Positions 5,537-10,834 of a stretch of DNA of 56,815 nt are shown here, one piece after another. This DNA is from Bacillota bacterium. Its GTDB lineage: Bacteria > Bacillota > Clostridia > Lutisporales > Lutisporaceae. The DNA lies in the NCBI GenBank assembly GCA_029553855.1, contig JAKPKE010000065.1, positions 1 through 56,815 of the forward strand, written 5' to 3'. Position numbers and translations under genes: made by a program. The notes under the pieces were generated by a model that ran no database searches, was not told the DNA's origin, and saw only the letters and a list, made by a program, of their open reading frames with translations. Position 1 is the stretch's first letter; each line of letters starts with the position of its first letter.

Positions 5537-5983
5537 ATGTCCCTCAAAGAGGTATTACTAAGAGACCTTAAATCTGCGATGAAGGAAAAGGACGTTATCA
5601 GGAAGAATGTAATCATAATGGTAAGAGCCGGCGTTTTGCAGATTGAAAAGGACAAAAGGATTGAACTGGATGATGAGGGTGTTATAGAGGTAATCGCCAA
5701 AGGAGTTAAACAAAGGAAGGAATCCATACCCGACTTTGAAAAGGGCAACAGACCCGACCTGGTAGAAAGCATAAAAAAAGAAATTGATATTCTGATGGGT
5801 TATTTGCCGCAACAGCTTACTGAGGATGAGCTCAACCAAATAGTTTCAGATACGGTATTCGAAATAGGCGCACAGAGCATACAGGATTTAGGCAAGGTGA
5901 TGAGTGCGTTGATGCCCAAAGTAAAGGGCAGGGCTGACGGCAAATTGGTTAATTCAATTGTAAGACAGCATTTGCAAAAATAA
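5537..5983 (+). CDS. yqeY: GatB/YqeY domain-containing protein
   Basis: 148-residue helical protein matching the YqeY family, related to the tail domain of the GatB subunit of tRNA amidotransferase. Typical segments are LKEVLLRDLKSAMKEKD, a basic middle with KQRKES, YLPQQLTEDEL, and a C-terminal MGKVMSALM-like stretch followed by GRADGKLVNSIV. Its exact role is uncertain in any organism; a tRNA-binding role is inferred from GatB. It is the last gene of the rpsU transcript, and a strong terminator follows at 6046. Confidence 0.92.
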   Translation: MSLKEVLLRDLKSAMKEKDVIRKNVIIMVRAGVLQIEKDKRIELDDEGVIEVIAKGVKQRKESIPDFEKGNRPDLVESIKKEIDILMGYLPQQLTEDELNQIVSDTVFEIGAQSIQDLGKVMSALMPKVKGRADGKLVNSIVRQHLQK

Positions 5984-6077: not shown

Positions 6078-6115
6078 ATTGTATAGGAAAGTATAACTTT
6101 CCTATACAATAAAAA
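6073..6115. repeat. Perfect palindrome with 19-bp arms
   Basis: Left arm TTTTTATTGTATAGGAAAG (6073-6091), loop TATAA, and an exactly complementary right arm at 6097-6115. It starts inside the T-run of the yqeY terminator. With A/T-rich ends on both sides it could terminate transcription in either direction, or be a small palindromic repeat. Confidence 0.7.
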
Positions 6116-6230: not shown

Positions 6231-6477
6231 TCATTAAAACAGTCGGCTTAATGATTATAAATGATGAAGGAATACTGGAAATAATGTCGAAATAAGGTTA
6301 TAGCGCCAAGGGAAGCCAGATATGTAAAACCTATGTAAATACAGAAATTGCCCGGCAGTTATCAGAAAAGTCGTCAGGGCAATGGGTATATATTCCTTGC
6401 CTCGTTGAAACGCTCGGGCAGGTTTTTTGCATATACAAAAAGACCTCATTGAAATATTGTTGTAAGGAGGCTGTAAT

Positions 6478-9009
6478 ATGTTTAATTTAAGACTGTTTAA
6501 GAACAAGGGAGATAAGGACAGAGGGAGTATTCAGGAGGCATCTGAAGGGTCGGGTGGCGTTTCAGGGAAAAGTTATTTACAGAAAAAGGTTCTTGAGGCA
6601 ACAAATCATAATAAGATAGTAAGCAAGATCGGCTACAGGATAGAGGAAGCCGGCTTTGTAATCGACAGCTTGATTGATAAGACGGGGAACATTGCTAAAT
6701 ATCTGGAAATACAGACTGATTCCATAGAGAAGGTGGTGGGAGAAATCAGCGACTACTCCGCCCTCGCCGAGGAGGTATTTGCCAGCATTGAAAATGCAAA
6801 GAGTATTTCTGTGCAGACTATGGAGGTAGCTAAAAAGGGTAATGATGCAGTTGACGATTCCATAAAGGCAATGAACGAAATTGAAGTCTCGGTGCTGGAA
6901 TCAAAAGAGGTTGTAAATGTGCTGAGTACGAAGGCTGCACATATCAATGAGCTTCTTAATGTAATCAGAGACATAGCAGACAGTACCAACCTTCTTTCCT
7001 TGAATGCCTCAATAGAAGCGGCAAGGGCAGGTGAGGCCGGAAGGGGATTTGCTGTGGTAGCCCAGGAGGTCAAGAAGCTGGCGGAGAGAAGTGTTGACTC
7101 AATAAAATACATTAACGATATAATCAAGGAAATAAACGATAGTGTGCTTATTGCCACAGCTTCCATGGATAAGACAATAAGCAAAGTAAAGGAAGGCACA
7201 GATATATCCAACAACACAATGGAAGTGTTCAATACAATCATTAAGGCAGTTGACAACAACAACCGGGTTTCTGATGAAATAAACTCGGCAGTTACCAAAC
7301 AGACTGCCAACCTTGAGGAGATGGTCAGTTCAACCTATGAGATGAGAGGTACCTTTGACAAGCTGATAATGGCTGTAGAGCAAGCTTCACTCTACACACG
7401 GTTTACCAAGACTGCACTGGAAGCCCTGGAGTCAGCCTCAACCCAACTGAAGGCTTCTGCTGACAGGCAGCATGCAGACAGAATATTGGCTGTGGAATAT
7501 ACTTCAGTGTTGACGACCTGCCTGCCCAGCATTCCCCAGACCTTTGACCCGCATATGTCCTTTGAATACATAGGAGCCCATATAATGCACAATACCAACA
7601 GCGGGCTGCTTAATATAAACTCTGCAAGCCAGGTGGTGGCAGGCATAGCGAAGAATTGGAATCTGGGAGAGGACGGACTTACATGGGTTTTCCATCTGAG
7701 AAAGGGCGCCAAGTTTCAGAATGGCCGCGAGATTACGGCCGAGGATGTCAAGTATTCCTTCGAAAGGGTGCTCAGACCGGAGATGAACTCTCCAAATAGC
7801 TGGGTGCTTATGAGTGTGGACGGGGCAGAGGAATACAATTCGGGAAGTGCAAAAGAAGTCAGGGGGATAAAAGTTCTTGACAGGTACAGGATAGCTCTGA
7901 GACTGACTGCTCCCCATTCCGGCTTTCTTCTTAACCTTGGACAGTTCAGTGCATCCATTTTACCAATGGAGGAAATTGAACAGGGCAGGATAATAGGCTG
8001 CGGCCCTTACAGGACAACCGATATCCAGGATGACAGGTTTATTCTTGAGGCCTTTAAAGATTATTATAACGGGGAACCATATATAAAGAAGATAATTGTT
8101 GAGGTAAACGATAAGGATGTATCAGAGGGACTTATTGATGGAAGATATGATTTCGTAATAACTGACAATAACAGCATAATTGACGGGGTCAGGGATAACG
8201 AAGCTATAAAGGTACAGACAAAGGGAATAATAGGCACATATTATGCCGGCTTCAACCTTTTGTGCGACTCTCCCTATGTCAGGAACAAGGAAGTGCGGAA
8301 GGCCTTAAATATGGCGGTGAATAAGAAACGGATAGTTCAGGAGGTAATGGGCGGTCTTGCGATTGAAGCCAAGGGGCCTTTCCCTCCAAGTATTGTTGAC
8401 ATCGGAAAAGTCAAGGGCTATGAATATAACCCTGGGGCAGCAAGGGAGATCCTTCAGAAGAACGGCCTTGGAAGAGGCGGCCATAAGCTTAGGATACTTG
8501 CCAGGGATGAAGAAGATACCTCTGCATACAATCCTATGATGAATATTATTATAAGCGATTTCAACGAAATAGGTATAGAGTGCGAAGTGATAAGGGTCAA
8601 TGCAGCTCAATACCTTAATATGGATAATATAAGAAGATGCGACATGTATTTGAGCAGATGGATCGGAGACACAGGTGATGCCGATAATTTCCTTCAGCCT
8701 CTTTTCAACATGGAGAGCAAGACGAATTTTTCCGGCTACACCAATAAAAACGTTACTGATGATATGAATAAAGCAAAGGAGATTACTGATCCCGAAAAGA
8801 GAGCTGAGGTTTACAAAAGCATCCAGGAAAGCATAATAGATGATGCCCCATGGATATTCATATTTCATCCGCAGTCGGGGGTAGCTTATAGGAGTAACCT
8901 CGGAGGCATAAGGCTCAGTTCTCTGGGTCTGATGAAATATGAAGATATAATTGAAGAAAATATAACAAGCAGAGATGGCCAAGCTTATAATCCACCACTT
9001 ATTATATAG
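6478..9009 (+). CDS. Soluble methyl-accepting chemotaxis transducer fused to a family 5 peptide-binding domain
   Basis: 843 residues with two modules. Residues about 45-320 form an MCP signalling domain with the hairpin-tip core [20 protein letters not shown] (about 172-191) and long flanking coiled-coil heptads. Residues about 345-825 match the SBP_bac_5 (oligopeptide/dipeptide-binding) fold: [34 protein letters not shown], and a late [21 protein letters not shown]. No signal peptide, membrane helix or HAMP domain is visible, so both modules should be cytoplasmic. The chemoreceptor would then read an internal ligand through its C-terminal binding domain, much as the unrelated regulator SgrR uses a cytoplasmic SBP_5 domain. 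The ATG has AAGGAGG 9 nt upstream. It is monocistronic and followed by a terminator. Confidence 0.9.
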
Positions 9010-9151: not shown

Positions 9152-10834
9152 ATGGGTGAAAACACAAACAGCGGGATTTCCAACTTTATACATGATTTTA
9201 TCGATAAAGACCTGGAGGAAAAAGTATACGACAAGGTACATACCCGTTTTCCTCCGGAACCTAACGGTTATCTTCATATAGGGCATTGCAAGGCCATGTA
9301 TATAGATTTTAGCATTGCAGAAAAATATGGAGGATTATGCAATCTTAGGTTTGATGATACCAATCCGATTAAGGAGGATACGGAATATGTCGAATCCATT
9401 ATGGAAGACATCAAATGGCTTGGATTTGACTGGGAAGACAGACTGTTCTATGCATCGGATTATTTTGATCATATGTATGAGTTTGCGGAAATTCTCATAA
9501 AAAAAGGTAAGGCATATGTGTGTGATTTAAATCAGCAAGAAATAAAGGATTATAGAGGCACTCCGACTGAGCCGGGGGAAAACAGCCCTTATAGAGAGCG
9601 CACAGTTGCCGAGAACCTGGACTTGTTCAGGAGGATGCGGTCAGGTGAATTTCCCGAAGGATCAAGGACCCTTCGTGCCAAGATAGATATGGCGGCACCC
9701 AATCTTAACATGAGAGATCCCGTATTATACCGGATACTGAAGTCAGATCACCATAGAACGGGGGACAAGTGGTGCATTTATCCGATGTACGATTTCCAGC
9801 ATCCGCTTTCCGATGCTCTGGAGGGAATTACTCATTCTCTTTGTTCATTGGAATACGAGGATCACAGGCCGTTGTACAATTGGGTTGTAGAGGAATGTGA
9901 AACCCTGCATAAGCCGAGGCAGATTGAATTCGCAAGACTGAATCTTACCTATACCGTTATGAGCAAGCGATATCTGAGGGAACTTGTGGAATCAGGCATT
10001 GTCAGCGGGTGGGATGATCCAAGGATGCCTACGTTATGTGGTTTGAGAAGGAGAGGTTATACAGCAGCCGCAATAAAGGACTTCTGTGACAGGATTGGTG
10101 TGGCCAAGACAAACAGTACCGTTGATTACGCACTTTTGGAGCATTGCATAAGAGAGGACCTGAATAAAAGGGCGGATCGCGTAATGGCAGTATTGCGTCC
10201 ATTGAAGGTTATCATAGATAACTATCCCGAGAACCAGGTTGAGGATTTTGATGTAGAGATTAACCCGGAAGACCCCGGCAGGGGAATGCGCAAAGTATCC
10301 TTTTCACGGGAAATCTACATTGAGCAGGAGGATTTCATGGAGAACCCGCCAAAGAAATATTTCAGGCTATATCCCGGGGGAGAAGTCAGACTGAAAAGTG
10401 CTTATTTTATTAAGTGTGGAAGTGTTGTTAAAGATCCCCAAACAGGGGAAATTACTGAAATTCACTGTACCTATGATCCGGCTTCAAAGGGAGGAAACTC
10501 CCCTGATGGAAGAAAGGTAAAGGGAACTGTTCATTGGATATCCGCCGCCTGTGCTCTGGATGCGGAGGTTCGTTTGTATGATCAGCTTTTTGCGGTACCT
10601 AACCCGGGGGAAGAGGGAAGGGAATACAAAGATGATTTGAACCCTGATTCTTTGGAGGTGCTGACAGGCTGCAAGATTGAACCGGAATTGGCGGAAACCT
10701 CTGTAGGGACTGTCTACCAGTTCCTGCGAATGGGTTATTTCTGCCCGGATAATAAAGATTTTGGAAAAGGAAAACCAGTATTCAACCGAATAGTAGGTTT
10801 GAAGGACACATGGTCCAAAATTGCGAACAGATAA
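9152..10834 (+). CDS. glnS: Glutaminyl-tRNA synthetase
   Basis: Class I aminoacyl-tRNA synthetase that charges tRNA-Gln. At 560 residues it has the GlnRS-type HIGH region [16 protein letters not shown] (about residues 31-46), [14 protein letters not shown], the KMSKS equivalent VMSKRYL, and the C-terminal anticodon-binding beta-barrels. [14 protein letters not shown] with the NPI/EDTEYV segment separates it from GluRS. Many Firmicutes lack GlnRS and make Gln-tRNA by the GatCAB transamidation route. Here a full-length enzyme is present, a pattern usually explained by ancient horizontal transfer. It is monocistronic, with GGAGG upstream and a terminator behind it. A TATAAT (9100-9105) with only a poor -35 precedes it. 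Confidence 0.96.

Follow-up and report, generated by a model that had tools for sequence, protein, structure and literature searches.

A soluble chemoreceptor of Bacillota with a C-terminal SBP_bac_5 domain, a possible sensor of cytosolic solutes

Among cytoplasmic chemoreceptors, CZB domains are common C-terminal sensors, as in TlpD (PMC8262984), and some archaeal cytoplasmic receptors also carry their sensor domains at the C-terminal end (PMC9680633). SBP_5 sensors are found in the cytosol in SgrR and DsvR (PMC13060122), and SBP-type domains have been noted generally in cytosolic signalling proteins (PMC9602780). The combination of MCPsignal and SBP_bac_5 was not found in the literature searched, including a literal search of both Pfam names, although key reviews fell outside this coverage and an earlier mention is possible; the receptor family described here is apparently unstudied so far.

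The window (the whole stretch of DNA analysed, 56,815 nucleotides of contig JAKPKE010000065.1 from a Bacillota bacterium) contains a gene for such a fusion. Its features, in window coordinates, are:

6464..6470, + strand: ribosome-binding site AAGGAGG, 7 bases before the ATG (sequence)
6478..9009, + strand: whole gene, 843 residues, MCP hairpin plus SBP_bac_5 (ORF, Pfam)
6478..6555, + strand: disordered N-terminus, residues 1-26 (pLDDT < 50)
6556..7476, + strand: MCP coiled-coil hairpin, helices 27-183 and 185-333 (AlphaFold2 pLDDT mostly 70-87; alignment to 2ch7)
6757..6786, + strand: consensus methylation-type site, residues 94-103, with Glu98/Glu99 (consensus match, 32/37 members)
6985..7047, + strand: hairpin tip, residues 170-190, predicted CheA/CheW contact region (invariant residues in 37 members)
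7303..7332, + strand: second consensus methylation-type site, residues 276-285 (only Glu280 well conserved, 30/37)
7477..7506, + strand: short linker, residues 334-343 (lower pLDDT; fast-evolving)
7507..8970, + strand: SBP_bac_5 domain, residues 344-831, Venus-flytrap fold (Pfam, model, Foldseek)
7999..8001, + strand: Cys508 in a GCGPY motif (Cys in 32/37 fused against 3/70 unfused proteins)
8503..8505, + strand: Arg676 (Arg in 30/37 fused proteins)
8668..8670, + strand: Asp731, equivalent to mature DppA Asp408, putative amine-binding residue (alignment count; 37/37)

Architecture and location of the fusion protein

The gene is a single open frame from an ATG start to a TAG stop, in whose product Pfam recognises two families only, MCPsignal at residues 111-289 (E 3e-39; 135 bits for a cut-off of 34.6) and SBP_bac_5 at residues 386-746 (E 3e-74; 250.7 bits for a cut-off of 32.4). 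It is separated by 497 bases from yqeY upstream (5537-5983), and by 142 bases from a downstream gene identified by eye as glutaminyl-tRNA synthetase (9152-10834; tRNA-synt_1c is among the neighbours), and is therefore probably transcribed alone. An Rfam scan around the gene returned no RNA element. At window positions 6079-6109 lies a 31-base palindrome, TTGTATAGGAAAGT-NNN-ACTTTCCTATACAA, which occurs at 26 places in the genome and at none in a reversed control; its arm ends show paired changes (TCG..CGA, TAG..CTA), and it is a REP-like or terminator-like element.

Relatives were recovered by a profile search with the SBP half, a single-sequence locus search having given none. The alignment set comprises 37 distinct full-length fused proteins, the window protein among them; both domains are matched in each of the 37, and the few other matches are to weak coiled-coil families.

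Within the window protein, the greatest mean hydropathy over 19 residues is 0.96, well below the level of a membrane helix, and the protein therefore has none; neither a signal peptide nor a lipobox was seen by eye, and a HAMP domain is matched in 0/37 full-length members. Sequence and structure prediction together place the fusion protein in the cytosol, with nothing that would target it outside the cell. In most of the 37 members, the first residues (window 6478-6510) are hydrophobic or aromatic, followed by Lys/Arg (MFxFKKxK-like). A peripheral membrane contact through this hydrophobic-basic stretch is weakly possible, the hydrophobic moment of the N-terminal peptide in the window protein being only 0.25.

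The AlphaFold2 model of the whole protein (pLDDT 83.8, about 90 in the Venus-flytrap domain), which replaced an earlier and poor model built from 8 sequences (pLDDT 69.5), comprises an intact hairpin and a complete flytrap domain, the latter placed by the model on the end of the hairpin's C-terminal helix, at the hairpin base. The hairpin aligns gap-free over about 240 residues to the Thermotoga maritima MCP 2ch7; this alignment and the length of the helices (about 154 residues) fit what we take to be the 44-heptad class, and on the model the hairpin is full-length and apparently belongs to this long class. Four tip residues (T170, N176, E180 and R183) and two glycines at the hinge (121 and 240) are invariant in the 37 members, and the Glu98/Glu99 motif precedes the tip motif by 78 residues, a spacing kept in 32/37. 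Aligned with L008, a second receptor encoded in the same genome, the fusion hairpin is free of inner gaps up to 120 residues from the tip, which makes mixed arrays of the two proteins conceivable from their sequences.

A preliminary description of this DNA had proposed one 843-residue frame joining an MCP hairpin to a complete SBP_bac_5 domain, devoid of signal peptide, membrane helix and HAMP. Frame, Pfam and fold model confirm the first point, with the extent of the hairpin corrected to about residues 27-333, and the scans above uphold the second; the missed membrane segment that it named as a refutation is rejected by the hydropathy maximum.

The sensor domain and its putative ligand

The closest structures to the SBP domain in Foldseek are 3m8u, 5f1q, 8arn and 8upi (TM on the target 0.84-0.86; E 2e-38), a likeness that extends over GbpA, DppA, OppA and 8upi. 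The SBP half scores 157 bits with the NCBIfam DppA model (cut-off 1005) and 40.5 bits with the SgrR model (cut-off 476), thus below the cut-off of both, and the Opp/Dpp models score far better than SgrR. In mature DppA, Asp408 binds the ligand amine and Arg355 the dipeptide carboxylate, roles supported by the structure entry 8z1z of the mutant R383D/D436R (precursor numbering). Counted from the printed alignment, the equivalent of Asp408 is Asp731, conserved in 37/37 fused proteins versus 49/70 unfused relatives, while Arg355, the Arg of the RPYNP motif, is found in 0/37 fused members. A plain DppA-like dipeptide sensor is unsupported because this carboxylate-binding Arg is missing.

Two further positions distinguish the family: that of Cys508 is usually Thr in unfused relatives (and Ala in 5 fused members), and that of Arg676 is commonly Asn, Met or Thr in unfused relatives, Arg not being among their common residues. 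Taken together, Asp731, Arg676, Cys508 and the missing Arg355 equivalent suggest that the family shares a specific ligand of its own, which has an amine group and is bound in another way than DppA binds a dipeptide, and the domain is possibly a sensor for an amine- or peptide-like solute. The cytoplasmic sensor proposed in the preliminary description is thus retained in part: a cytosolic location, an intact hairpin, a complete SBP_5 fold and CheA in every carrier tested speak for it; a peptide as the ligand and an action on CheA are its hypothetical parts.

The reading that we favour, with a probability of about 0.62, is that of a soluble chemoreceptor acting in the CheA pathway of the flagella, whose SBP_5 domain is the sensor for a cytosolic solute; what the family senses is probably an intracellular small molecule. 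The protein would dimerise through its MCP hairpin, whose tip would join CheA/CheW arrays, and closure of the flytrap on the solute would alter how the hairpin base is packed and thereby change CheA activity, with adaptation by CheR/CheB possibly acting at Glu98/99 and Glu280. The ligand probably has a free amine, which would contact Asp731, and any acid end would be bound differently from DppA in the absence of an Arg355 equivalent, perhaps via Arg676. In such a scheme, an internal pool, for example of imported peptides or amino compounds, would guide the cell, and external concentrations would do so only indirectly. A bolder and more tentative proposal, which we hold to be somewhat improbable in its entirety, is that an extracellular nutrient-binding domain has been turned inside out, flagellated Bacillota navigating by an internal peptide- or amine-like pool, with Arg676 and Cys508 as marks of the shared ligand.

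The SBP domain might instead bind no small ligand, and serve either in docking or structurally, bringing another protein to the array, or as a redox sensor acting through Cys508. Loss of the DppA Arg355 motif and the near-fixation of Cys508 (32/37) fit this explanation, as does the occurrence of cysteine-based oxidant sensing in other cytosolic receptors; it is nevertheless unlikely, given the invariant Asp731, the purifying selection, the complete fold and the Ala found at position 508 in five members.

Genomic context and evolutionary history

CheA and flagellin are present in 21/21 carrier genomes tested, against a background for CheA of 329/398 genomes in the phylum sample (83%), which gives p of about 0.02 if carriers were independent, but they are not; the association is thus only weakly informative, consistent with a chemotactic role and no proof of it. 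Two carriers (G000 and G260) have two CheA genes each. In G000, the two CheA-type kinases are encoded on C3 and C208, and an MCP gene is found some 1.6 kb away from the C3 copy; this genome may therefore have a second chemosensory system. MCP genes adjoin the fusion in a few loci (4/71 neighbouring genes scanned), and no conserved partner gene was found at carrier loci. A dCache receptor gene adjoins the fusion in Tissierella praeacuta, and in G260 (L048:5426-7501) the fusion is directly preceded on its own strand by a gene for a sensor-less soluble MCP (331 residues) and, ahead of that, by a gene judged FIST-like by eye.

Could the MCP dimer serve instead as the scaffold of a regulator in a pathway other than flagellar chemotaxis? 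The preliminary description had offered this alternative, which gained no positive support in our analysis and seems improbable: the two CheA genes in two carriers and the altered tips in tandem copies of one lineage (see below) could be read in its favour, but the tip and the methylation-type site are intact in nearly all members, the loci lack a conserved partner, and flagellin accompanies the fusion in every carrier tested.

A role in transport is very unlikely for the fusion protein, because a Dpp-type (DppB-like) permease is found near 0/24 carrier loci, compared with 45/58 loci of ordinary relatives in the same search. That the protein is an exported binding protein of a peptide transporter, with a vestigial MCP region, would agree with the normally extracytosolic location of SBPs (PMC9602780), and is highly improbable in view of these loci, of the missing signal peptide and lipobox, and of the constraint on the MCP half, which is no weaker than that on the SBP half.

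The fusion is carried by 2/6 genomes of the genus, 8/391 of the class and 14/398 of the phylum, and its patchy presence within the genus indicates that it is dispensable; the copy of a second species of this genus is 66% identical over the whole length. All carriers retrieved in a search of named genomes are Bacillota, including Clostridium carboxidivorans P7 (complete genome), C. thailandense, C. algidicarnis, C. punense, C. hydrogeniformans, Tissierella praeacuta, Caloramator australicus, Asaccharospora irregularis, Hathewaya massiliensis and others. A plasmid search gave partial matches only, none over 80% of the query.

A well-supported branch separates the SBP halves of the fusions from 71 unfused SBPs; four rows that seemingly break the fused group are fragments of tandem fusions truncated at the ends of their loci. 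In the MCP tree, 34 of the fused proteins group in a single clade, two broken fused copies excepted, and three others (L065-L067), which stand apart on long branches, may represent a separate or early fusion. In close pairs, dN/dS is 0.03-0.12 in both halves (closer pairs were used since dS is saturated between the window and G004 copies), so both halves are in use, and the linker evolves faster than the halves in every pair where this was computable. Strong purifying selection on both halves and the clustering of each thus indicate an old, mostly single fusion, and its recurrence in dozens of clostridia-like bacteria shows a real receptor family.

Some copies of the fusion depart from this pattern. 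Frameshifts interrupt it in Tissierella sp. P1 (L099), Caloramator sp. mosi_1 (L126) and Clostridium senegalense (L139), and these copies are pseudogenes or sequencing errors. At L170:2072-6894 (G674), two fusion copies lie in tandem about 14 bases apart, both with altered tips (one reads NASIQSAHAGQ, the other has lost a residue), and are perhaps a specialised or heterodimeric pair; tandem matches also occur in G556, G604 and G651.

An artefactual joining of neighbouring genes by sequencing or assembly error, conceivable in a draft assembly that comprises 311 contigs and has 6% contamination, can be set aside as extremely improbable, since 36 further full-length relatives have the same order and a similar length, one of them in the complete C. 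carboxidivorans P7 genome, and share the same junction, which excludes the hidden stop or frameshift near residues 320-345 that the preliminary description had named as a refutation.

Comparison with described receptors and binding proteins

Every feature tested identifies the fusion protein as a soluble chemoreceptor, and its sensor is the unusual part; there are precedents both for soluble receptors whose sensor is C-terminal and for SBP_5 sensors in the cytosol. The SBP_5 domain, a textbook extracytosolic part, is here likely a cytosolic chemoreceptor sensor, kept by selection across several Bacillota families. A well-understood binding fold thereby opens internal-state sensing in chemotaxis to direct tests, and a function can be offered for public proteins whose annotation probably goes no further than MCP or ABC binding protein. 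Placing the sensor last is unusual but has precedents, and calling it the reverse of a usual receptor was an overstatement, C-terminal CZB sensors being common (PMC8262984).

Like H. pylori TlpD, the fusion protein has no membrane segment, its hairpin comes first and its sensor last, and its signal would be cytosolic; unlike TlpD, whose sensor is a small zinc/oxidant domain (CZB), it carries a Venus-flytrap of 490 residues. With the transcription regulators SgrR and DsvR it shares a cytosolic SBP_bac_5 domain as C-terminal sensor, whereas its output is an MCP and theirs an HTH DNA-binding domain, for which Pfam gives no match in the window protein. It resembles DppA, GbpA and HbpA in the fold of the sensor (TM to target 0.84-0.85) and in the amine-binding Asp, and differs from them in lacking an export signal, a nearby permease and Arg355, in place of which it has Arg676 and Cys508. 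Finally, its hairpin is of the same length class as that of the Thermotoga maritima MCP (2ch7/3ja6), to which the fusion adds an SBP domain that the T. maritima MCP does not have.
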